A stretch of 64,000 nucleotides of DNA, from positions 124,001 through 188,000 of the forward strand of contig NZ_JAAGPD010000013.1 in the NCBI RefSeq assembly GCF_017104565.1, written 5' to 3'. This document shows positions 22,258 through 34,662 of the stretch, in pieces. The notes below the pieces were generated by a model. That model was given only the letters and a program-made list of their open reading frames with translations. It did not search any database and had not been told where the DNA came from. Origin of the DNA: Paraburkholderia sp. Tr-20389 (GTDB lineage: Bacteria > Pseudomonadota > Gammaproteobacteria > Burkholderiales > Burkholderiaceae). The translations under genes were made by a program, and so were the position numbers. Position 1 is the first letter of the stretch. Each line of letters opens with the position of its first letter.

Positions 22258-22301
22258 TTCCGGCAAATGTTCCTTCAACATTGACCTAGAGAAGATTGAC
22301 C

Positions 22302-23555
22302 ATGTCCAGTTTGATCACTATCCAGAAAGTCATCGCGAGTCCCGGCGTTGGCTCCTTCTTTTTCGACGACCAGGCCGCCATCAAGGCTGGAGCGCAGCGC
22401 GACGGCGCAGCGTATGCCGGTACACCGCAAACTCCCGGATTCAAGGCTGTTCGCGAGCCATCCGAATCGGTGTCGGTCATGCTCGTCCTGAGCGATGGCT
22501 ATATCGCAAAGGGCGACTGCGCGAGCGTCCAATACACCGGCGTTGGCGGCCGGGAGCCGCGATTTCATGCGAAGGAACTTGCAACGCAGATCGAGCAGCA
22601 GTTGGCCCCACATCTGAGCGGCCTGAGCATTCGTTCGTTCCGAAAGACGGCTGAATTCGCCGAGCAGATCATCGATGGATCCTTTGAAGCGAAACGCGCT
22701 GCGGCTTATGGGGTGTCTCAAGCATTGCTGGACGCGGCTGCTCACGTTGCCGGCCATCATCTGATGGCCCAGGTCATCAGAGACGAGTGGCAGATCGACA
22801 AGCCGCTTGCTGCGGTACCGGTGTACGGCCAGTGCGGCGACGAACGTTATACGAATGTCGACAAGATGATCCTCAAGAGCGTGCCAGTGATGCCACATGG
22901 CCTGATCAATACCAGCGATCTGGTCGGTCCCGATGGTGCGGCGCTCGAAGCCTACATCGACTGGTTGAGAGGCCGCATTGCTCAACTTCGAACGTCGGCT
23001 GACTACCAGCCGGTTATCCATATCGACGTCTACGGTCTCATCGGCGCTGCGGCAGGCGGCTCGATTGAGGGAACTGCCGACATTATCGATCGGCTCGAAC
23101 GCGCAGCAGGCCCCCACCAATTGCGCATTGAACACCCGCTTGATGCCGGCGGACGGGACGCGCAAATCGAGGCCCTGGGCGCGCTTCGCCGAACGCTGAA
23201 GAATCGAGGCAGCAACGTCGGAATCATTGCCGACGAATGGGCCAACACGGCCGAAGACGTACACCTCTTCGCTGCAGCTGGTGCTGTCGATATGGTGCAG
23301 ATCAAAACGCCGGATCTCGGCTCCCTCCATAACTCTGTCGACGCAATCCTCGACTGTCACCGTCATGGTGTCGGGCCGGTGCTCGGTGGTACGTGCGCAG
23401 AAACCGATCTGTCGGCACGCGCGACTACGAACATTGGTGTAGCAACCGGTGTCACGCAGATGCTCGCGAAACCAGGTATGGGATTCGATGAAGGCTTCAA
23501 CATCGTCTTCAACGAGATGAATCGGGTCCTACGCATCGCCCAGGCGATTCGCTAA
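22302..23555 (+). CDS. Methylaspartate ammonia-lyase (3-methylaspartase)
   Basis: This 417-residue member of the enolase superfamily converts L-threo-3-methylaspartate to mesaconate and ammonia. Active-site residues can be seen: His in VMPHGLINT, the three metal ligands in IHIDVYG, IEHPLDAGG and IIADEWAN, and the Gln-Ile-Lys pair in MVQIKTPDLG, whose Lys is the catalytic base. The N-terminal SPGVGSFFFDDQAAIKAG is typical. The start is the ATG at 22302, not the TTG two codons upstream. The usual partner, glutamate mutase, is not in the window, so methylaspartate must come from outside the cell or from another locus. It is the third gene of the GMC-ALDH operon. Confidence 0.94.
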   Translation: MSSLITIQKVIASPGVGSFFFDDQAAIKAGAQRDGAAYAGTPQTPGFKAVREPSESVSVMLVLSDGYIAKGDCASVQYTGVGGREPRFHAKELATQIEQQLAPHLSGLSIRSFRKTAEFAEQIIDGSFEAKRAAAYGVSQALLDAAAHVAGHHLMAQVIRDEWQIDKPLAAVPVYGQCGDERYTNVDKMILKSVPVMPHGLINTSDLVGPDGAALEAYIDWLRGRIAQLRTSADYQPVIHIDVYGLIGAAAGGSIEGTADIIDRLERAAGPHQLRIEHPLDAGGRDAQIEALGALRRTLKNRGSNVGIIADEWANTAEDVHLFAAAGAVDMVQIKTPDLGSLHNSVDAILDCHRHGVGPVLGGTCAETDLSARATTNIGVATGVTQMLAKPGMGFDEGFNIVFNEMNRVLRIAQAIR

Positions 23556-23632
23556 CGAGTGGACTGCCCAGCAGGTTGCGCCCACCACGGGGGTATCCTG
23601 CTTCGGTCAGTAGCTCCTCGCGTTTTCTGTGA

Positions 23633-23701
23633 GCCTTCGAATTTTGCGAAGCGCGCTTGTCGAAGTGCTCATTCCGGGATCAAAGAGCGCGACGTAGAAT
23701 T
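23633..23701 (+). promoter_or_regulatory. Promoter block shared with citF (CaiB/CitE copy)
   Basis: This block matches 9899-9967 over 69 bases without gaps, with a T-N11-A box (TCGAATTTTGCGA, 23637-23649), a conserved ATTCCGGGA and an identical TAGAATT at the same spacing. It lies about 170-240 bases before the CoA-transferase ATG. Confidence 0.6.
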
Positions 23702-23805
23702 TCCGGATCGGTATGACATGCGGATTGGACCTTCACCATCCCGGCCCCGCCCCCAATCGCGAACTCCCGGACACCGGGGCGTAGGCCGAGCCGCCACAAT
23801 ATCTG

Positions 23806-23848
23806 ATCAAATTCATTCGTTCGATATCCCATCAAATTAGTTAATTCG
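23806..23848 (+). repeat. Imperfect direct repeat upstream of the CoA-transferase
   Basis: Two 18-base copies (ATCAAATT-N2-TT-N2-TTCG at 23806-23823 and 23831-23848) agree at 14 positions and are offset by 25 bases, about two and a half helical turns. The second ends 24 bases before the ATG. They may be an activator or repressor site. Confidence 0.4.
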
Positions 23849-23872
23849 TACTACGTAGAAGGAAGTTACGAA

Positions 23873-25051
23873 ATGACAGGACCGCTTTCTGGAATCACTG
23901 TTGTGTCACTGGAACAGGCTATCGCAGCACCATTTGCGACGCGACAGCTTGCCGATCTGGGTGCGCGAGTCATCAAGATTGAGCGTCCCGTAGTTGGCGA
24001 CTTCGCTCGCGCATACGACGACCGTGTAAACGGTATGTCGTCGCACTTCGCATGGACCAACCGCTCGAAGGAAAGTCTCACGCTGAACACGAAGCATGAG
24101 CAGGCGAGCGGCGTTCTCCATTCGCTTCTCGCCAAGGCGGACGTCTTCGTACAGAACCTGGCGCCCGGTGCAACGGCGCGAATCGGTTTGGACTATGAGA
24201 CTCTGAAGGAGCGTTACCCAGGGCTGATTGTCTGCGACATCTCGGGCTACGGTGACAACGGACCTTATACGCAAAAGAAGGCCTACGATTTGTTGGTCCA
24301 GGCGGAAGCTGGCTTCCTGTCAGTTAGCGGCACAGGTGAGGAGATGGTCAAAGCCGGATGCTCGATCGCGGATATTGCGGCAGGCATGTATGCATACTCC
24401 AATATTCTTGCCGCACTGATTCAGCGTGGAAGGACGTCTCGAGGGTGCCGGATAGACGTATCGATGCTCGAGGCAATGGCCGAATGGATGAGCTTTCCCA
24501 TGTATTACGCCTTCGAAGGCGCTGCGCCGCCGCCGCGCGCCGGTGCGTCTCACGCCACGATCTTCCCGTACGGCCCGTTCGTCGCGAATGACGGCAAAAC
24601 TGTCATTCTTGGGCTGCAAAACGAACGGGAATGGGCGAAGTTCTGCCAAATCGTCCTTGAATCGCCGGAGCTGGTATCCGATGACCGCTTCTCCACGAAT
24701 GCGAATCGCAGCAAAAATCGCGCAGCGCTACGGGCGATCATCGATCATGCTTTCTCCGGTCTGGACAGCGACCAACTGCTTGCCCGGCTTGATGCTGCCG
24801 ACATTGCGAATGCCCGCGTCAACGACATGCGAGGCGTGTGGGAGCACCCACAACTCAAGGCACGAGAGCGCTGGCGAGTCGTAGGATCCCCGGTCGGCGA
24901 TATTCCAGCCTTGGTGCCCCCCGGCGGTACGGCCTTCGCCCAACGAATGGATCCGATACCGGCCGTTGGTCAGCATACCGACGACATCCTCACGGAACTG
25001 GGCTTTACACCGTCCGACATCGGCTCCCTGCGAGCGACGGGCGGCATCTAG
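23873..25051 (+). CDS. CaiB/BaiF (type III) CoA-transferase
   Basis: This is a 392-residue family III CoA-transferase. GITVVSLEQAIAAPFATRQLADLGARVIKIERPVVGDFAR is the standard N-terminus. DVFVQNLAPGATARIGLDYE contains the expected Gln-Asn-x-x-PG stretch, although the catalytic Asp found in related motifs is better sought in DISGYGDNGPY and CRIDVSMLEAM. The enzyme transfers CoA between two carboxylates through a mixed anhydride. It is followed ten bases on by a CitE-like lyase, so the acceptor is probably citramalate, mesaconate or another hydroxy-dicarboxylate. GAAGGAAGTTACGAA precedes the ATG. Its promoter region holds the block shared with citF. Confidence 0.93.
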   Translation: MTGPLSGITVVSLEQAIAAPFATRQLADLGARVIKIERPVVGDFARAYDDRVNGMSSHFAWTNRSKESLTLNTKHEQASGVLHSLLAKADVFVQNLAPGATARIGLDYETLKERYPGLIVCDISGYGDNGPYTQKKAYDLLVQAEAGFLSVSGTGEEMVKAGCSIADIAAGMYAYSNILAALIQRGRTSRGCRIDVSMLEAMAEWMSFPMYYAFEGAAPPPRAGASHATIFPYGPFVANDGKTVILGLQNEREWAKFCQIVLESPELVSDDRFSTNANRSKNRAALRAIIDHAFSGLDSDQLLARLDAADIANARVNDMRGVWEHPQLKARERWRVVGSPVGDIPALVPPGGTAFAQRMDPIPAVGQHTDDILTELGFTPSDIGSLRATGGI

Positions 25052-25061
25052 GAGCACCTAT

Positions 25062-25916
25062 ATGAAATCAGCTGACAACGCCGTCACCTACCTGTTTGTA
25101 CCCGGCGATCGACCTGAGCGTTTTGCAAAGGCCGTACTCTCGGGAGCTGATGTCGTGATTATCGACCTGGAAGATGCCGTCGCCCCCGCAAACAAGGCCG
25201 AGGCAAGAGGAGCAATTCTCGAGGCATGGCCGTCGTTGCTTGAAATCGCAACCGAACACTCGACTTCGCTCTGCATTCGCATAAACGGTCTTCGCGAGAA
25301 GCACGCGAAGGATGACCTTGCGCTCTGTCATCTGCTCAGGCCGACATTGGTGATGGTACCCAAGGTTGAGTCGGGAGCCGAACTCGGAGTGGTCTCCCGG
25401 GAGGTGCCATCTGCGCGAGTACTCGCGCTCATCGAGACGGCGTTGGGTGTGCTGGAGGCCAGGTCGATTGCAGCAGCGCCAAATGTCGCGAAACTGATTC
25501 TCGGATCGGTTGACCTGATGCTAAACCTTGGCATTTCGGACGATCGCGACCCACTTGACTGGACTCGTTCGATGCTTGTTCTTTCATCAGTAGCAGCGGG
25601 GATCGGTGCACCTGTGGACGGTGTCTGCACATCGATTGAAGACTCCGCTCGCATTAAGGCTGACGCGCAGCGCGCTCGCAGCTTCGGCTTCGGCGCGAAG
25701 CTGTGCATCCACCCGAAACAGATCGGCGCGGTTAGGGAAGCCTTTATGGTGACGGATGAGGAAGTCTCGTGGGCTAAACGGGTGATCGAAGCCGCAGAAG
25801 CGAGTGCTGGAGCGGCAACAGCGGTCGACGGCGCGATGATTGATATCCCTGTTTTGCTTCGCGCGAAGAAGATCGTCGCGCAGCACAGCGATGCTTTGAG
25901 GTTTGGCGCTGACTGA
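25062..25916 (+). CDS. HpcH/HpaI-CitE family CoA-thioester lyase (citramalyl-CoA lyase candidate)
   Basis: This 284-residue CitE-type TIM barrel has YLFVPGDRPERFAKA (thioester and CoA binding), IIDLEDAVAP (metal-binding region), CIRINGL, MVPKVES with the metal Glu, and CIHPKQI near the C-terminus. The family cleaves citryl-, malyl-, citramalyl- or methylmalyl-CoA into acetyl-CoA (or propionyl-CoA) and a 2-oxo acid. Here a CoA-transferase lies just upstream and methylaspartase further up, so citramalyl-CoA to acetyl-CoA plus pyruvate is the best guess. The ATG at 25062 has AGGAG overlapping the previous stop, showing translational linkage. Confidence 0.9.
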   Translation: MKSADNAVTYLFVPGDRPERFAKAVLSGADVVIIDLEDAVAPANKAEARGAILEAWPSLLEIATEHSTSLCIRINGLREKHAKDDLALCHLLRPTLVMVPKVESGAELGVVSREVPSARVLALIETALGVLEARSIAAAPNVAKLILGSVDLMLNLGISDDRDPLDWTRSMLVLSSVAAGIGAPVDGVCTSIEDSARIKADAQRARSFGFGAKLCIHPKQIGAVREAFMVTDEEVSWAKRVIEAAEASAGAATAVDGAMIDIPVLLRAKKIVAQHSDALRFGAD

Positions 25917-26068
25917 ACAGGCGGGAACGCGGACTTACCGCAACGGCCCGCCATCCGGCGGGTCGGGGCCGCGCAGAGACTGATCGAAGACATCTCATCT
26001 TTCGAAAAACCGTTGCGCGGCGACACAGCGCCCTTGAGGCGCATAGAACAATGTTTTGGAGACAACGT

Positions 26069-27460
26069 ATGAGTGACGAGCAAGGTGTCCTGCACCGAGG
26101 CCTCGGAAATCGCCACATTCAATTGATGTCGATAGGCGGTGCAATTGGAACAGGACTTTTCATGGGGGCAGGGAAGACCATCAGCGTATCGGGTACCTCA
26201 ATTCTTCTCACCTACATGACCATCGGCTTTTTCCTGTTTTTCACTATGCGGGCGATGGGCGAGATACTCCTTTCTAACCTGCAATTCAAGTCGTTCTCGG
26301 ACTTCTGCAGCCATTACATTGGCCCATGGGCAGGGTATTTCATAGGATGGTCCTACTGGATGACGTGGGTGGTAGTCGCAATAGCGGACTGTACGGTAAT
26401 TGGAGGCTATCTGCGTTTCTGGTTTCCGGACTTGCCACTGTGGATCCCTGCGTTGGTCGTGCTTGCGACACTGATGGTTCTTAACCTGGTCGCAGTCCGT
26501 CTATTCGGCGAACTCGAATTTTGGTTCGCTTTGGTAAAGGTACTGGCGATCACGGCGTTAGTCGTCGCAGGTGTCTTCATGATTGTCACTGGTTACGTCG
26601 CACCAACCGGCGTGCGCGCCTCGCTGACCCATATCGTCGAACCCGGGGTTGTCTTTCCCTTCGGATTGTCCGGTTTCTTCGCTGGTTTCCAGATCGCAAT
26701 TTTCTCCTTCGGAGGCATTGAGTTGATCGGGACGACGGCCGCGGAAACGCGCGACCCGACTCGCACGCTGCCGCGAGCAATAAATGCTGTGCCTCTCCGG
26801 GTTTTGTTCTTCTACGTGCTGTCGCTGGCGTGCATTATCTCGGTCTCGTCATGGGCGGAGATCGCGGCTAACAAAAGCCCTTTCGTGCAGCTGTTTCTGC
26901 TGGCGGGATTTCCGGCGGCAGCAGGGATCATCAACCTTGTGGTGATTTCGTCCGCCATGTCTGCAGCGAACAGTGGTGTGTTCGCTACCAGCCGCATGCT
27001 CTACGGACTGGCGGCTAACGAGCAGGGTTCGCAATATTTCATGAAACTCTCGCGCTCATCGGTACCTGTGCGAGGCCTGCTGTTCTCATGTGCATGCATG
27101 CTGGCAGGCCTGTCGGTCCTTCATTTCATGCCGGAGGTAATGGGAGCGTTCACGATCCTGACGACGGTGTCGGCCATTCTCTACATATTCGTGTGGGGAA
27201 TGATCCTGGTTGCTTATTTACGCTACCGCAGTCGTGACCCGCATCTTCATCTTCAGTCAACTTTCAGGCTGCCTGGCGGGCGGCTGATGGCTTGGGCGTC
27301 GTTAGGGTTCTTTGCTTTCATGATCTACCTGCTGCTGCTCGAGCGGGATACGGCCCAGGCGTTGAGCGTAATGCCTGCATGGTTCATTGGCCTGGCGGTG
27401 ATGTATCGCTTGCGCAAAGCGAAGGCGACACGAACAGACACCGCAAAGATATTTGGCTGA
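26069..27460 (+). CDS. APC amino acid permease, AAT family (GabP/ProY/AnsP-like)
   Basis: This is a 463-residue, 12-helix permease. LHRGLGNRHIQLMSIGGAIGTGLFMGAGKTI is the defining N-terminal motif of the AAT family. SGFFAGFQIAIFSFGGIELIGTTAAETRDP and SAANSGVFATSRMLYGLA are its helix 6 and 8 signatures. TTTTGGAGACAACG precedes the chosen ATG. It lies about 150 bases after the CitE-like lyase on the same strand. It probably imports the amino acid fed into this route (methylaspartate, glutamate or a similar compound), although AAT transporters vary too much for a firm call. Confidence 0.93.
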   Translation: MSDEQGVLHRGLGNRHIQLMSIGGAIGTGLFMGAGKTISVSGTSILLTYMTIGFFLFFTMRAMGEILLSNLQFKSFSDFCSHYIGPWAGYFIGWSYWMTWVVVAIADCTVIGGYLRFWFPDLPLWIPALVVLATLMVLNLVAVRLFGELEFWFALVKVLAITALVVAGVFMIVTGYVAPTGVRASLTHIVEPGVVFPFGLSGFFAGFQIAIFSFGGIELIGTTAAETRDPTRTLPRAINAVPLRVLFFYVLSLACIISVSSWAEIAANKSPFVQLFLLAGFPAAAGIINLVVISSAMSAANSGVFATSRMLYGLAANEQGSQYFMKLSRSSVPVRGLLFSCACMLAGLSVLHFMPEVMGAFTILTTVSAILYIFVWGMILVAYLRYRSRDPHLHLQSTFRLPGGRLMAWASLGFFAFMIYLLLLERDTAQALSVMPAWFIGLAVMYRLRKAKATRTDTAKIFG

Positions 27461-27582
27461 CACCGCTTTGCAGCGGTCAAACCGCAGCCCCTGCTTCACA
27501 TGGTCCGTCTGGGTGCTGTCCTTGGTTTCGGCAGTGGTCGGCGCCCGGAAGTCCGACGCAATTGATTTGGAGAAAAGGAATT

Positions 27583-27777
27583 ATGTCGACTATCGAACAT
27601 ATCGCACGGAGCGATTGCCACGAGAACGACCCAGCGGGAGATCGAACCATGTCTCGCGATGCTTGCCGCGCCCGGTCAATCGGACCCTTAACAAGCTGGG
27701 GATGGACACATAATTCTTCGCCTTGGGATTGGATGGATTTCCATGTTCTGCCTGTCGACGTCGACCGCCCAGCGTGA
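27583..27777 (+). CDS. Small tryptophan-rich protein, unknown
   Basis: This is a 64-residue ORF with a strong ribosome site (GGAGAAAAGGAATT then ATG), ending 12 bases before the GTG of the HAD-like gene at 27790. The second half holds TSWGWTHNSSPWDWMDFHV, with four Trp in about 16 residues. The first half is polar with two Cys. It has no signal peptide or membrane helix. I do not recognise it. The ribosome site and tight spacing to the HAD-like gene argue for a real two-gene unit, but composition alone cannot prove it is translated. Confidence 0.45.
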   Translation: MSTIEHIARSDCHENDPAGDRTMSRDACRARSIGPLTSWGWTHNSSPWDWMDFHVLPVDVDRPA

Positions 27778-27789
27778 CGGGAGGGTACT

Positions 27790-28323
27790 GTGTTAGCGCC
27801 AGTGGACGCTCTGATTGTATTTATCGACGATCTGTTGGTTGACTCCGTCGCGGAGCCAGCATCTCCTAGAATCAACGCGGTGCGACGTGGTATCGAAGCG
27901 ACCCTGGCAGATGCAATGAAGAAAGGGATCAAACTTGGCTTGGTCAGCAGGATGATCTATTACAACGTTGCTGTGGCGTGTGAGATAGCTTTTGATAGAG
28001 ATTTCATCAACAGCTTCGACGTCGTTCTCACGAGCGATCGGTCTTGTGAGTGCTGGTCATCCAGGTCTTGTATAGAAGAAGCACTGGTATTGCTAAGGGT
28101 GAAGGCGAATCGTGCAATGGCGATGGTATGCAACGAGCTCGACTTGATCGTCGCGACTCAGATTGGCGTTGGCTCGTTGTGGCGATTGGACTGCGCGAAA
28201 CAAATGACATCAGTTCCTCCGTCTGTGGTTGGGGGAGGGTTTTCGAAACGTCACCGGCATCGAGAGCTCGCTAGTGACGCATCTGATTGCTATGGACGGT
28301 TCCGAGCCCGGATCGGGTCCTGA
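27790..28323 (+). CDS. Degenerate HAD-like protein, upstream paralogue flanking pyc
   Basis: This 177-residue protein starts at GTG after GGGAGGG. It follows the beta-phosphoglucomutase-like HAD layout: DALIVFIDDLLVDSV at the first strand, GIKLGLVSR at motif II, FDVVLTSDR next, then RAMAMVCNELD where motif IV should be. The catalytic nucleophile Asp (normally DxDG) is replaced, with Phe-Ile-Asp-Asp here. The Lys of motif III (GKP) and the acidic pair of motif IV are missing. It is clearly homologous to the protein at 32149 on the other side of pyruvate carboxylase. It is probably a non-catalytic binding or regulatory protein. The last 45 residues are unlike the paralogue. Confidence 0.65.
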   Translation: MLAPVDALIVFIDDLLVDSVAEPASPRINAVRRGIEATLADAMKKGIKLGLVSRMIYYNVAVACEIAFDRDFINSFDVVLTSDRSCECWSSRSCIEEALVLLRVKANRAMAMVCNELDLIVATQIGVGSLWRLDCAKQMTSVPPSVVGGGFSKRHRHRELASDASDCYGRFRARIGS

Positions 28324-28556
28324 TTTCATACCATGCGTCCTAACACGGATTTAATCACGGCTCCCCTCCGCTGCCACTCAGTAAGGACGTGGGATGGAGA
28401 CGTACCTCTCGATGATCATTTTTTTGACCAGATGCGCTTATACCGACGTTAATTTTTTTATCGCCCTCAAGCTGCCATGAGTTCGGCCGCGAGATTGAAG
28501 GTCTACCTGCCACGCAACGTTTTGCCAGATGCCGCAAGTGCAAGCCCTCGCCTACT

Positions 28557-31500
28557 ATGAACTACAATCCCGTCAAATCCCTGCTAATTGCCAACCGGTC
28601 TGAGATTGCAATCCGTGTGATGCGCGCTGCCTCGGAGATGGACATCCGAACGGTGGCCATCTACTCGAAGGAGGACCGGCTCGCGCTCCACCGCTTCAAG
28701 GCTGACGAGAGCTACCTGGTGGGTGAGGGGAAGAAGCCGCTGGCTGCGTATCTTGATATCGACGACATCTTGCGAATTGCGCGGCAGGCGAGAGTCGACG
28801 CGATTCATCCTGGTTACGGGTTCCTCTCGGAGAATCCCGACTTTGCGCAGGCTGTCATTGATGCGGGCATTCGCTGGGTCGGGCCTTTGCCGCAAGTGAT
28901 GCGAATGCTCGGCAACAAGGTCGCGGCGCGAAACGCGGCGATCGCGGCCGGCGTGCCCGTCATGCCCGCTACAGACCCGTTGCCGACCGATCTGAACGAA
29001 TGCAAGCGTCTCGCTGCGGGCGTCGGTTATCCGTTGATGCTCAAGGCAAGCTGGGGCGGTGGTGGCAGAGGCATGCGGGTGCTGGAAACCGAACAGGATC
29101 TCGAATCGGCGCTTGTCGCTGCCCGGCGGGAAGCGCTTGCTGCGTTCGGCAACGACGAGGTCTATGTCGAGAAGCTGGTGCGCAACGCGCGCCACGTCGA
29201 GGTCCAGGTGCTTGGCGATGCGCATGGCAATCTAGTGCATCTGTACGAACGCGACTGTACGGTGCAACGGCGCAACCAGAAGGTCGTGGAACGCGCTCCA
29301 GCGCCTTATCTCGATCACGTCGGCCGCGCCGTGCTCTGTGATTGCGCGTTGCGATTGATGCGCGCGGTTGGCTACACGCACGCGGGCACTGTCGAGTTCC
29401 TGATGGACGCGGATTCCGGCAAGTTCTACTTCATCGAGGTCAATCCACGCATCCAGGTAGAGCACACCGTCACCGAGATGATCACAGGGGTCGACATCGT
29501 CAAGGCGCAGATTCGCGTCACCGAGGGCGGCAAAATCGGCCTGACGGAAGACGTACGAAATCAGGACGGTGGCATCATCGACCGAATGTCGGGCGTGCCG
29601 CCACAGGCGCAGATCCCGCTTAACGGGCACGCGTTGCAATGTCGGATCACGACCGAAGATCCCGACAACGGTTTTCTGCCCGACTACGGTCGACTGACCG
29701 CGTACCGGAGCGCGTCGGGTTTCGGCGTTCGGCTCGACGCGGGAACCGCGTACGGCGGTGCGGTTATCACCCCGTACTACGATTCGCTGCTGGTCAAGGT
29801 GACTACATGGGCGCCTACGGCCGGCGAATCGATCCGCCGCATGGACCGGGCGCTGCGGGAATTCCGTATTCGCGGTGTTGCATCGAATCTGCAGTTCCTT
29901 GAAAACGTCATCAATCACCCCTCCTTTGGGTGCGGCGACGTCACGACGCGGTTCATTGATCTGACGCCTGAACTGCTTGCGTTCACGAAGCGGCGTGACC
30001 GCGGGACGAAGCTGCTGCGCTATCTCGGCGACGTGTGCGTGAATGGACATCCAGAGATGGCAGGCCGCTCGCTGCCGACTTTGCCACTATCGCGTCCCTT
30101 GTTGCCCAAAGCCGAAACCGTATCCCCGATCCAAGCAGGCACGCGTGATCGTCTGCGCGAACTGGGCGCCGAAAAATTCGCGCAATGGATGCTGGACCAA
30201 AAGCGGGTCCTACTGACCGATACGACGATGCGAGATGCGCATCAGTCGCTGTTCGCCACGCGTATGCGCACTGCCGACATGCTGCCAATCGCGCCGTTTT
30301 ACGCACGCGAATTGCCGCAACTCTTTTCGATGGAATGCTGGGGCGGTGCGACTTTCGACGTTGCGTTACGCTTCCTTAAGGAAGACCCGTGGGCGCGCCT
30401 TGCGCAACTGCGTGAGCGAGTACCTAACATCCTGTTCCAGATGCTACTGCGTGGTTCAAATGCCGTGGGCTATACGAACTACGCGGACAATGTTGTGCGC
30501 TTTTTCGTCCGGCAGGCGGCGGGTGCAGGCGTCGATGTGTTCCGTGTATTCGATTCGCTGAACTGGGTCAGCAACATGCGTGTGGCAATCGATGCCGTGC
30601 GCGACAGCGGGGCACTTTGTGAAGGCGCGATCTGCTATACAGGCGATTTGTTCGACGTTTCCCGCCCGAAGTACGACCTGAAGTACTACGTCGGGATCGC
30701 GCGTGAACTTCAACGGGCCGGCGTGCATATTCTCGGCATCAAGGACATGGCAGGCATCTGCCGTCCGCACGCTGCGGCGGCACTCGTGAAGGCGCTCAAG
30801 GAAGAGACGGGCTTACCTGTTCACTTTCACACGCACGACACTAGTGGCATATCGGCCGCGTCGGCCCTGGCTGCGATCAATGCCGGCTGTGATGCCGTCG
30901 ATGGCGCGCTCGACGCGATGAGCGGGCTCACGTCGCAGCCGAATCTATCCAGCATTGCCGCTGCGCTCGCCGGTAGTGCGCGCGATCCCGGGCTCAGTCT
31001 TCAGCGCCTGCACGAGGCGTCAATGTACTGGGAAGGTGTGCGCCGCTACTACTCACCGTTCGAATCGGAGATTCGCGCAGGCACGGCGGACGTGTACCGT
31101 CACGAAATGCCAGGGGGCCAGTACACGAACCTGAGGGAGCAGGCACGCTCGCTCGGGATCGAGCACCGATGGACAGAGGTGTCGCAAGCATACGCGGACG
31201 TCAACCGGATGTTTGGCGATATCGTCAAGGTCACGCCAACTTCCAAAGTGGTGGGCGATATGGCCTTGATGATGGTGGCCAATGACGTGAAGTCGGCTGA
31301 TGTGTGCGATCCCGCCAAGGAAATCACTTTCCCGGAATCAGTCATATCACTGTTCAAGGGGGAGCTCGGTTTCCCGCCCGACGGCTTTCCGGCTGAACTG
31401 TCCCGCAAGGTCTTACGGCGCGAGCCGCCAGTTCCGTACCGGCCTGGCGATCAGATCCCGCCCGTCGACCTGGAAGTGGCGCGTGCCCAGGGCGAGGCGG

Positions 31501-32066
31501 CGTGCGAGCAGGCGCTCGATGACCGTCAGCTTGCTTCTTACCTGATGTACCCGAAGCAGACAGCCGACTTCCATGCGCACCTGCGTGCCTACAGCGACAC
31601 GTCCGTGCTTCCCACTTCAGCTTTCCTGTATGGGCTGCAGCCGCAGGAAGAAGTGGCCATCGACATCGACGCAGGCAAGACACTGCTGGTGTTGCTGCAG
31701 GGACAGCACACCGATGTCGAGGATGGCATGGTTAAAGTCCAGTTTGAGTTGAACGGGCAGTCGCGGACCACGCTAGTCGAGCCCCGCATGAGGTCAGAAT
31801 CTGTGGCGGCGCGAGTCGCCAGACCGATTGCGGACCCGATCAATCCACTGCATGTCGCCGCGCCGATGCCCGGTTCGATCGTAACCGTGGCGGTTCGACC
31901 TGGGCAGAAAATCTCCGCTGGAAGCCTGTTGATTGCTATGGAAGCGATGAAGATGGAGACGAACATCACAGCCGATGGCGAGTATGAAGTCGGGGCAATT
32001 CACGTTCAATCGGGCGACCGCGTCAATGCAAAGGAACTGCTGATTGAGTTGAAACAGGTGGTCTGA
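28557..32066 (+). CDS. pyc: Pyruvate carboxylase, single-chain
   Basis: This 1169-residue biotin enzyme makes oxaloacetate from pyruvate, bicarbonate and ATP in the cytoplasm. The biotin carboxylase domain covers residues 1-460 (LLIANRSEIAIRVMRAA, the ATP-grasp loop KASWGGGGRGMRV, FIEVNPRIQVEHTVTE). The carboxyltransferase domain starts near 550 (LLTDTTMRDAHQSLFATRM) and includes the carbamylated Lys in LGIKDMAGICRP. The biotin carrier domain ends the chain with AMEAMKMETN (biotinyl Lys near residue 1132). It is full length with no missing motif. No clear ribosome site precedes the ATG. It is bracketed by two degenerate HAD-like genes and followed by fumarase, which fits anaplerosis for growth on compounds degraded to acetyl-CoA and pyruvate. 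Confidence 0.97.
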   Translation: MNYNPVKSLLIANRSEIAIRVMRAASEMDIRTVAIYSKEDRLALHRFKADESYLVGEGKKPLAAYLDIDDILRIARQARVDAIHPGYGFLSENPDFAQAVIDAGIRWVGPLPQVMRMLGNKVAARNAAIAAGVPVMPATDPLPTDLNECKRLAAGVGYPLMLKASWGGGGRGMRVLETEQDLESALVAARREALAAFGNDEVYVEKLVRNARHVEVQVLGDAHGNLVHLYERDCTVQRRNQKVVERAPAPYLDHVGRAVLCDCALRLMRAVGYTHAGTVEFLMDADSGKFYFIEVNPRIQVEHTVTEMITGVDIVKAQIRVTEGGKIGLTEDVRNQDGGIIDRMSGVPPQAQIPLNGHALQCRITTEDPDNGFLPDYGRLTAYRSASGFGVRLDAGTAYGGAVITPYYDSLLVKVTTWAPTAGESIRRMDRALREFRIRGVASNLQFLENVINHPSFGCGDVTTRFIDLTPELLAFTKRRDRGTKLLRYLGDVCVNGHPEMAGRSLPTLPLSRPLLPKAETVSPIQAGTRDRLRELGAEKFAQWMLDQKRVLLTDTTMRDAHQSLFATRMRTADMLPIAPFYARELPQLFSMECWGGATFDVALRFLKEDPWARLAQLRERVPNILFQMLLRGSNAVGYTNYADNVVRFFVRQAAGAGVDVFRVFDSLNWVSNMRVAIDAVRDSGALCEGAICYTGDLFDVSRPKYDLKYYVGIARELQRAGVHILGIKDMAGICRPHAAAALVKALKEETGLPVHFHTHDTSGISAASALAAINAGCDAVDGALDAMSGLTSQPNLSSIAAALAGSARDPGLSLQRLHEASMYWEGVRRYYSPFESEIRAGTADVYRHEMPGGQYTNLREQARSLGIEHRWTEVSQAYADVNRMFGDIVKVTPTSKVVGDMALMMVANDVKSADVCDPAKEITFPESVISLFKGELGFPPDGFPAELSRKVLRREPPVPYRPGDQIPPVDLEVARAQGEAACEQALDDRQLASYLMYPKQTADFHAHLRAYSDTSVLPTSAFLYGLQPQEEVAIDIDAGKTLLVLLQGQHTDVEDGMVKVQFELNGQSRTTLVEPRMRSESVAARVARPIADPINPLHVAAPMPGSIVTVAVRPGQKISAGSLLIAMEAMKMETNITADGEYEVGAIHVQSGDRVNAKELLIELKQVV

Positions 32067-32148
32067 AGCCCCCCACGCGGACTCAAGCGACAGGAGCGTT
32101 AGCAGAAGAGGAGACGACATCATAACAGTAGAGGCCTTCATTTTATGT

Positions 32149-32649
32149 TTGGACGATGTCCTGATTGACTCCGTTGCGGACCCCGAAATCGCCAGACTAG
32201 TCGATATACGGAACGCTGTTGAAGCTGGACTTCATCGGGCGGCGCGAAGAGGCATCAAGGTGGCCCTGGTTAGTGGAATGGTTTCTCATAATCTCGTGAT
32301 GACGTGTGAACGAGCATTTTCCAGAGACTTCATGAAAAGATTCTCTGTAGTAGTCCCCTGTGATCGACCTGGCTTGGGTTTGTCACAACTTCCTCTGATG
32401 GAGAGGGCGCTGTTATATCTCGAGGTACCCGCTGGGCGCGCGATCGCGGTTATATGTAACGAGGTTGATGCGATGGCTGCCAACGACGCAGGGATCAGTC
32501 GATATTGGCATCTGGATGTTCCTGACGATCGTGAGATGTGGTGCTCAGGCGAGCGCATAGCGTCTGGCAAGGGGAAAGATCCGGTGTTGACCCTTTCAGA
32601 AACTGATACGGCTCTCCGGGGATTGCTTCAGGGTTTCATGCGTCACTGA
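32149..32649 (+). CDS. Degenerate HAD-like protein, downstream paralogue flanking pyc
   Basis: This protein has 166 residues from the only ordinary start codon, a TTG. However, the frame and homology extend upstream (EAFILCLDDVLIDSV) to about 32119-32122. There a good GAGGAG site stands five to eight bases before ATC or ATA, so a non-canonical start is likely. It is colinear with the protein at 27790 (DDVLIDSVA, RRGIKVALVSGM, AFSRDFMKRFSVVV, RAIAVICNEVDAMAANDAGISRYWHLD). The HAD nucleophile position is Cys instead of Asp, and the motif III Lys and motif IV Asp pair are missing, so phosphatase activity is unlikely. It lies just after pyc on the same strand. Confidence 0.65.
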   Translation: MDDVLIDSVADPEIARLVDIRNAVEAGLHRAARRGIKVALVSGMVSHNLVMTCERAFSRDFMKRFSVVVPCDRPGLGLSQLPLMERALLYLEVPAGRAIAVICNEVDAMAANDAGISRYWHLDVPDDREMWCSGERIASGKGKDPVLTLSETDTALRGLLQGFMRH

Positions 32650-32757
32650 AGCGAGCGGTCTTGAGGAAGTATCGGATAAACCCGGGCTAGCTTGCAATCT
32701 GCCTGACGTCGCGCGATGTTTGATCGGTGGGAGCGGGAATGAGCAATAGAGGAAACG

Positions 32758-32994
32758 ATGAAGCTTCACGCTAACTCTCTGCGCGCGCTTGCGCACACGT
32801 GGGTGGGCACCAACGAGATCTTGAAAATCACACGGCCAGCCCGGTCGCGAGATATGCCTTGGCGCGTTGTACGGATCGAAGCCGCAGGGTCGACAGGGGC
32901 ATTCGCTGTTGTCTTCTTTCGACATAGCCATGGTTCCTGGTGCGTCTATCCTCCGGCGACGTGTAGACCATCAATGGCGGCGATCGCAGCATAG
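32758..32994 (+). CDS. Possible small ORF, unsupported by homology
   Basis: This 78-codon ORF has AGAGGAAACG before its ATG. It is Arg/Ala-rich with no recognised motif. It is the only candidate in the 488-base gap between the HAD-like gene and fumarase, which otherwise shows nothing clear. It may be a chance ORF in the fumarase leader. Confidence 0.2.
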   Translation: MKLHANSLRALAHTWVGTNEILKITRPARSRDMPWRVVRIEAAGSTGAFAVVFFRHSHGSWCVYPPATCRPSMAAIAA

Positions 32995-33138
32995 CCCCTA
33001 AGGGCGTTTCAACCTCACCAATCAGCGATTCAGGCGAGGCTACGAACGTCGCCCGGTAGTACCGTGCCTTGTTTGTGTATCGACCCCGTCCTATCGCGGG
33101 GGCGGGATCCACAGAGGCCACCACACGAGCAACTAGCC

Positions 33139-34662
33139 ATGACCGTCATCAAACAGGAAGACCTGATCCAGAGTATTGCGGACTCGCTGCAGTACATCAG
33201 CTACTACCATCCGCTCGACTACATCGAGGCGCTCGGCCGTGCCTATGAACTCGAAGAGAGCCCGGCCGCGAAGGACGCGATCGCGCAGATCCTGACGAAC
33301 AGCCGCATGTGCGCGGAAGGCAAGCGCCCGATCTGCCAGGACACGGGCATCGTCACGGTGTTCGTGAAGGTCGGCATGGACGTGCGCTGGGACGGCGCCA
33401 CCATGAGCGTCACCGACATGATCAACGAAGGCGTGCGCCGCGGTTACCTGAATCCGGACAACGTGCTGCGCGCGTCGATCGTGAGCCCGCCTGAAGGTGG
33501 CCGCAAGAACACGAAGGACAACACGCCGGCCGTGATCCACTACGAAATCGTGCCGGGTAACACCGTCGACGTGCAGGTCGCGGCCAAGGGCGGCGGCTCG
33601 GAGAACAAGTCGAAGTTTGCGATGCTGAACCCGTCGGACTCGATCGTCGACTGGATCCTGAAGACCGTGCCGACGATGGGCGCGGGCTGGTGCCCGCCCG
33701 GCATGCTCGGCATCGGCATCGGCGGCACGGCTGAGAAGGCGATGGTCATGGCGAAGGAATCGCTGATGGACCCGATCGACATTCAGGACGTGATCGCACG
33801 CGGCCCGCAGGACTGGATCGAAGAACTGCGCGTCGAACTGCACGAGAAGGTCAACGCGCTCGGCATCGGCGCACAGGGCCTGGGCGGCCTGGCTACCGTG
33901 CTCGACGTGAAGATCATGGCCGCGCCGACGCACGCCGCGTCCAAGCCGATCGCGATCATCCCGAACTGCGCGGCCACGCGCCATGCGCACTTCACGCTCG
34001 ACGGCTCGGGCGTCGCGAAGCTCACGCCGCCGCCGCTCGACGCATGGCCGAAGGTGCAGTGGGAGCCGGACACCGAAAAGAGCAAGCGCGTCGACCTGAA
34101 CACGCTGACGCCGGAAGAAGTCGCTTCGTGGGCGCCGGGCCAGACGCTGCTGCTGTCGGGCAAGATGCTGACGGGCCGCGACGCTGCGCACAAGCGCATC
34201 GCCGACATGCTCGCGAAGGGCGAAAAGCTGCCCGTCGACTTCACCAACCGCGTGATCTACTACGTCGGACCGGTCGATCCGGTGCGTGACGAAGCCGTCG
34301 GCCCGGCAGGCCCGACCACGGCCACGCGCATGGACAAGTTCACGGAAACGATGCTCGCGCAAACCGGCCTGATCTCGATGATCGGCAAGGCCGAGCGCGG
34401 CCCTGTCGCGATCGAGGCAATCAAGAAGCACAAGGCCGCGTATTTGATGGCCGTGGGCGGCGCGGCGTATCTCGTGTCGAAGGCGATCCGCAGCGCGAAG
34501 GTGCTCGCGTTCGAAGACCTCGGCATGGAAGCCATCTATGAATTCGACGTGCAGGACATGCCCGTGACGGTCGCCGTCGATTCGAACGGCACGTCGGTTC
34601 ATCAGACGGGACCGAAGGAATGGCAGGCGAAGATCGGTAAGGTTCCTGTCGTCCCGCTCTGA
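33139..34662 (+). CDS. Class I fumarate hydratase (4Fe-4S), possible mesaconase
   Basis: This 507-residue iron-sulfur fumarase (FumA/FumB type) has its three cluster Cys in RPICQDTG, GWCPPGMLG and IPNCAATRH, and GIGIGGTAEKA in between. It hydrates fumarate to malate; class I enzymes are also reported to hydrate mesaconate to citramalate. Chosen ATG 33139; a 25-codon upstream extension has no homology. The third-codon-position GC is far higher than in the neighbours, which resembles a highly expressed core gene copied into this region. A decayed fragment of a second copy lies at 38310-38425. Near methylaspartase and a CitE-like lyase, it could supply the missing hydration step of mesaconate breakdown. 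Confidence 0.95.
   Translation: MTVIKQEDLIQSIADSLQYISYYHPLDYIEALGRAYELEESPAAKDAIAQILTNSRMCAEGKRPICQDTGIVTVFVKVGMDVRWDGATMSVTDMINEGVRRGYLNPDNVLRASIVSPPEGGRKNTKDNTPAVIHYEIVPGNTVDVQVAAKGGGSENKSKFAMLNPSDSIVDWILKTVPTMGAGWCPPGMLGIGIGGTAEKAMVMAKESLMDPIDIQDVIARGPQDWIEELRVELHEKVNALGIGAQGLGGLATVLDVKIMAAPTHAASKPIAIIPNCAATRHAHFTLDGSGVAKLTPPPLDAWPKVQWEPDTEKSKRVDLNTLTPEEVASWAPGQTLLLSGKMLTGRDAAHKRIADMLAKGEKLPVDFTNRVIYYVGPVDPVRDEAVGPAGPTTATRMDKFTETMLAQTGLISMIGKAERGPVAIEAIKKHKAAYLMAVGGAAYLVSKAIRSAKVLAFEDLGMEAIYEFDVQDMPVTVAVDSNGTSVHQTGPKEWQAKIGKVPVVPL

Follow-up and report, generated by a model that had tools for sequence, protein, structure and literature searches.

What is the role of two small HAD-like proteins whose genes bracket a pyruvate carboxylase gene? 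This question is raised by a 64,000-nucleotide stretch of the genome of Paraburkholderia sp. Tr-20389 (contig NZ_JAAGPD010000013.1, positions 124,001 to 188,000 of the forward strand; termed here the window), within which pyruvate carboxylase (pyc) is flanked by two open reading frames (ORFs), termed here copy A (27790..28323, + strand; 177 residues) and copy B (32119..32649, + strand; about 176 residues). An initial annotation described these as homologous, active-site-less relatives of beta-phosphoglucomutase-like HADs and proposed that they are binding or regulatory partners, perhaps of the carboxylase. The analysis described here indicates that A and B are very probably HAD-derived proteins lacking the classical HAD chemistry, and that they belong to a little-described bacterial family that appears to descend from sugar-phosphate phosphatases without the parts required for that chemistry. 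The fuller proposal, namely that such a descent and such a loss have left proteins that act, without catalysis, as binding or regulatory partners of the redox and central-carbon enzymes encoded nearby, has about an even chance of being correct.

Both frames occur where the initial annotation placed them, and their homology is supported: they have 56 of 130 residues in common over an ungapped alignment (E = 1e-35). A HAD ancestry of the CbbY/beta-phosphoglucomutase type likewise holds up, inasmuch as the A/B family matches CbbY in a profile search (8e-12) and the structure model of copy B fits the HAD core by Foldseek and VIA, with the fold and strand order of subfamily I. (Structure prediction, which the initial annotation had suggested for both proteins, is informative for B; the model of A, with a pLDDT of 49.7, is too poor for use, and A may be assigned to the HAD fold by homology only.) In single-protein Pfam scans (PF13419, PF00702) copy A falls below the curated cut-off (HAD_2, E = 0.034, 14.7 bits versus the 23.8 needed), as do four other family members, copy B yields no match, and weak NCBIfam matches of the family to PpaX and PGP_bact are all below curated cut-offs as well. 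The C1 cap that would lie between motifs I and II is absent, as is seen both from the profile alignment, which skips CbbY residues ~21-91, and from a corresponding gap in the family alignment. A small HAD-like protein is seen also in 2pr7, a 137-residue uncharacterised protein of Corynebacterium glutamicum (Foldseek TM 0.62 by target length), the comparison here being one of structure.

The catalytic residues were read across 40 distinct family members (43 frames), anchored by three intact HADs from the same genus; loci L013 and L048, which are copies of L012 and L047, were left out before counting. The position of the nucleophile is occupied by R in 21 members, N in 12, C in 2 (copy B and its Paraburkholderia franconis ortholog), S in 2 (including that of genome G070) and F (copy A), T and D in one each; thus the nucleophilic Asp is missing in 39 of the 40, and the sole member to have it (L088) still lacks the remaining catalytic set. 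The motif III Lys is found at the aligned column in none of the 40, a Lys occurring elsewhere within this loosely aligned loop in four, and the motif IV Asp is likewise found in none, although a Glu occurs two residues further on in 38. Hence the absence of these residues, as claimed initially for A and B, is confirmed on alignment with intact enzymes. Because nucleophile, Lys and motif IV Asp are all lost, the classical aspartyl-phosphate reaction is predicted to be lost with them, and the inability of A and B to carry it out is well supported.

Three polar pocket residues, on the other hand, are kept: the second Asp of motif I (D3, the third position) is present in 40 of 40 members; the motif II position is always Ser or Thr (T in 24, S in 16); and the shifted Glu is nearly invariant. 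In a 12-row alignment the invariant columns (copy B numbering) are A6, D12, G45, L50, F75, A97, L98, L101, A110, A121 and G125, among which D12 is the only polar one. The mouth of the old active site therefore looks both acidic and conserved, as though the pocket had been rebuilt rather than abandoned. The cap loss and the retention of the second motif I Asp and of the motif II Ser, along with a 78-residue ORF 3' of copy B, had been overlooked in the initial annotation. Because the residues defining a catalytic HAD were looked for and not found, the family is not classified as such; its manner of working would be that of a pseudoenzyme. This sets it apart from CbbY (a xylulose-1,5-bisphosphate phosphatase; PDB 4uar, 4uas, 4uat and 4uau), which has the nucleophile, the motif III Lys, the motif IV acidic pair and the C1 cap, and from the beta-phosphoglucomutase and phosphoglycolate phosphatase HADs of subfamily I, which share its fold and strand order but have the cap and the catalytic set. 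CbbY with its nucleophile changed to Asn has, judging from the titles of 4uat and 4uau, been solved with substrate bound, which indicates that a nucleophile-less HAD can still bind, though in that case, unlike in the A/B family, Lys and cap are kept.

The question of what such a pocket might serve leads from the window to the family as a whole. Genome counts for the genus, family and order are lower bounds, and long open frames (about 200 residues or more; E of 6.7e-16 or weaker in the family search) were excluded, being taken as ordinary full-length HADs. Short members occur in at least 6 of 145 genus genomes (G000, G035, G070, G084, G105 and G110), in at least 63 of 398 family genomes (49 from genus g36, 11 from g34, 2 from the window's own genus and 1 from g49, at E values of 4.5e-32 or below) and, at the level of the order, in at least 2 of 399 genomes, which belong to that same taxonomic family. 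The presence of members in records named as Burkholderia arboris and B. multivorans suggests that g36 is Burkholderia. A search of a plasmid collection returned three Burkholderia megaplasmid or chromosome-like records; in the two whose gene tables were examined, these are empty in that stretch. Beyond the order, coverage consisted of a pattern scan of a species collection, which returned two Paraburkholderia loci; within the collections searched, the family is seen in Burkholderiaceae only. Among the papers listed in literature searches, none dealt with this HAD-like family.

In 33 of 40 genomes the gene lies beside one for a type II NADH dehydrogenase (NDH-2), in either order; more precisely, NDH-2 is close in 33 of the 36 genomes having a member of a type other than those in the window (26 of the 28 loci ranked highest, both of two further ones and 5 of 6 examined in wider context), the exceptions being L086 (none within 14 kb, L176), L094 and L172. 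NDH-2 also adjoins in both named Burkholderia records, with a 1.5 kb gap in one of them, whereas G000, G070, G084 and G110 have no NDH-2 beside any family copy. The neighbouring oxidoreductase was identified by its similarity to solved NDH-2 (2e-37 and 3e-36). A CbbR-like LysR gene (NF045990, sub-threshold) adjoins as well and is divergent from the NDH-2 gene (L014 7569-10603, L093, L108). The order is LysR, HAD-like, NDH-2 in g34, G035 and G105, where the genes nearly touch or overlap, and LysR, NDH-2, HAD-like in g36 and g49. The HAD-like gene thus precedes NDH-2 in some genera and follows it in others, and the linkage has survived a rearrangement. Many of the loci are orthologous to one another, however, so that the 33 do not count as independent events. 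Other settings occur too: G110 and G084 each have a second copy next to acetyl-CoA synthetase (acs), and in G070 the gene is flanked by an AraC-type gene and by one for a protein of unknown family. A possible analogy for the commonest setting, beside NDH-2, is Bacillus subtilis YjlC, a small protein encoded beside YjlD (NDH-2); YjlC is not known to be a HAD protein.

These observations may be accommodated as follows. A CbbY-type phosphatase ancestor lost the C1 cap, the nucleophile, the motif III Lys and the motif IV Asp, while the kept motif I Asp, the motif II Ser/Thr and the shifted Glu would line the mouth of the old active site. Most probably, a small ligand or metal would still be bound in this pocket without turnover, and the bound state would be passed on, as a form of regulation, by docking on a neighbouring enzyme, which would be NDH-2 in most cases and pyruvate carboxylase or acetyl-CoA synthetase in a small number of lineages. 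A more specific and rather unlikely version is that these proteins are plug-in sensor subunits whose remodelled metabolite pocket, docked on the adjacent enzyme (NDH-2 as a rule, pyc or acs in some lineages), makes NADH oxidation and the entry of carbon respond to how much of a phosphorylated or acidic metabolite is present. Several considerations weigh against the main proposal. The Asp and Ser/Thr that are kept may be structural. The ratio of nonsynonymous to synonymous differences (pN/pS) between copy B and its P. franconis ortholog is 0.31 (95% range 0.22-0.46), three times that of pyc for the same species pair (0.10). GC content at third codon positions (GC3) is 57% in A and 52% in B, lower than in most neighbouring genes. 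The best NDH-2 locus of the Tr-20389 genome itself (L142) has LysR and NDH-2 without a HAD-like gene. Finally, the neighbours are not the same in every clade (NDH-2, pyc, acs or none of the three), and the case for any single partner is the weaker for it.

A competing explanation is that A and B are evolutionary left-overs, that is, drifting paralogs of a HAD family that are unneeded in this lineage and are heading for loss. Local decay is a serious rival because copy B lacks a standard start and because no ortholog of copy A was found. Copy A has a GTG start at 27790 with a good ribosome site upstream; it is unique in the 145 genus genomes among the matches listed. For copy B, the frame is open from 32053, and the sole standard start, TTG at 32149, falls within the first beta strand; a purine-rich, ribosome-binding-like site (32106..32113, + strand), conserved in P. 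franconis, instead points to a start at about 32119-32122. The window has ATC and ATA codons here, and the P. franconis ortholog has ATG. A strong ribosome site without a standard start (32113-32151) may reflect either use of a rare start or lowered translation. (A promoter and terminator scan was uninformative: it gave 0 promoters and a single terminator-like site, below the numbers obtained from shuffled sequence.) Likewise in keeping with decay, the P. franconis copy is shorter at its end by 28-plus residues, and the stretch of B past that stop shows no constraint (pN/pS 0.95, 29 codons); GC3 is low; and genome G140 has the methylaspartate cluster described below and pyc on one contig without a short family member among the matches listed. 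Against it, the pN/pS value of 0.31 indicates that the core of copy B is constrained, albeit seemingly loosely (compare 0.07 for fumarase in the same species pair, 0.38 for the small ORF, 0.15 for a Burkholderia-type family pair and 0.40 for a g34 pair; A versus B gives 0.50, with synonymous sites near saturation); the frames of A and B are both open over about 176 codons; the pocket residues are retained; and the wider family is strongly conserved, many of its members being 91-100% identical to each other. On balance, decay of this kind is a live but minority possibility; the Tr-20389 copies are perhaps poorly expressed or on their way out, whereas the wider family is maintained.

A tie to pyruvate carboxylase, as first proposed, fares less well. 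Within the window, pyc (28557..32066, + strand; 1169 residues; NF009554 at 1754.9 bits, cut-off 965) begins 233 bases after copy A and is followed on the same strand, after 52 bases, by copy B, whose orthologs in P. franconis and P. piptadeniae also follow pyc. Close pyc genes, however, occur at 22 loci in 19 of the 145 genus genomes, and by profile search a B-type gene is present at 3 of these (Tr-20389, G084 and G110) and A at 1 (Tr-20389 only), so that the pair does not recur beside pyc in related genomes, an outcome that the initial annotation had itself named as refuting its idea, and a pyc-specific pair is rejected on this census. Moreover, the P. franconis (L012) and P. piptadeniae (L013) contigs are identical over their first 11.3 kb, which points to a very recent common origin or transfer; therefore B lies beside pyc in only about two lineages. 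(The two contigs diverge thereafter at an insertion-sequence-like stretch, present in L012, within a carboxypeptidase-like gene.) The second pyc gene of the Tr-20389 genome has no family gene beside it. Given also the prevalence of NDH-2, the commonest neighbour, a dedicated partnership of A and B with this carboxylase is unlikely: binding or regulation is still the most plausible role, though probably not one with a pyc-specific partner.

That the old pocket instead runs some other reaction, through the Cys of copy B and P. franconis, the Ser of G070, or the kept Asp with the new Glu, is very unlikely: though 4 of 40 members have C or S where the nucleophile would be, and D3 and the shifted Glu are nearly invariant, the nucleophile position varies freely (being Phe in A), the motif III Lys and motif IV Asp are missing in all 40, and no cap is present to hold a substrate. 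A defence system was considered and rejected, PADLOC giving no match for five proteins.

The 78-residue ORF 3' of copy B (32758..32994, + strand), for which no Pfam or NCBIfam model reaches its cut-off, belongs by sequence matches to a small-protein family with a FFRHxxGxWCVYPP-like core. A homologous ORF (35%) lies also 3' of the G070 HAD-like gene, which at first resembled a conserved two-gene unit. This family, however, is dispersed throughout the genus (136 of 145 genomes have matches, with as many as 39 in one genome); the G070 ORF is not sister to the Tr-20389 copy (31% versus up to 67% for others); at the L064 pyc locus a member lies near pyc without a HAD-like gene; and a look beside A, the G035 and G105 genes and the acs-linked copies found no small ORF. 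An obligatory partnership was accordingly rejected, and the association is kept as a lead only.

As for the surroundings, the gene order within this part of the Tr-20389 genome (9.0 Mb, 129 contigs) is aldehyde dehydrogenase, methylaspartate ammonia-lyase (22296..23555; TIGR01502 at 513 bits, cut-off 286), class III CoA-transferase (23873..25051; PF02515, 4e-103), CitE/RipC-like C-C lyase (25062..25916; PF03328, with NF038242 below cut-off), amino-acid permease, A, pyc, B, the 78-residue ORF, class I fumarase (33139..34662) and an RraA-like protein, all of those with coordinates being on the + strand. The fumarase is a probable mesaconase; class I fumarases acting as mesaconase have been described, with Burkholderia xenovorans named (PMC4682846, whose passages on mesaconase mention no HAD protein). 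The region 22296-34662 may thus be read as a methylaspartate/mesaconate breakdown cluster giving acetyl-CoA and pyruvate, with pyc refilling oxaloacetate. A search of the Tr-20389 genome for glutamate mutase subunit E gave nothing, so methylaspartate or mesaconate itself may be the food. The methylaspartate ammonia-lyase gene occurs in 6 of the 145 genus genomes.

More generally, the family provides a clean natural case of a HAD in which nucleophile, Lys, metal Asp and cap have been lost while one Asp, one Ser/Thr and a new Glu are present, and hence a testable model for the conversion of a phosphatase pocket to another use. NDH-2 is usually regarded as a one-subunit enzyme; a small conserved protein encoded with it across several genera would be a candidate regulator or assembly factor.
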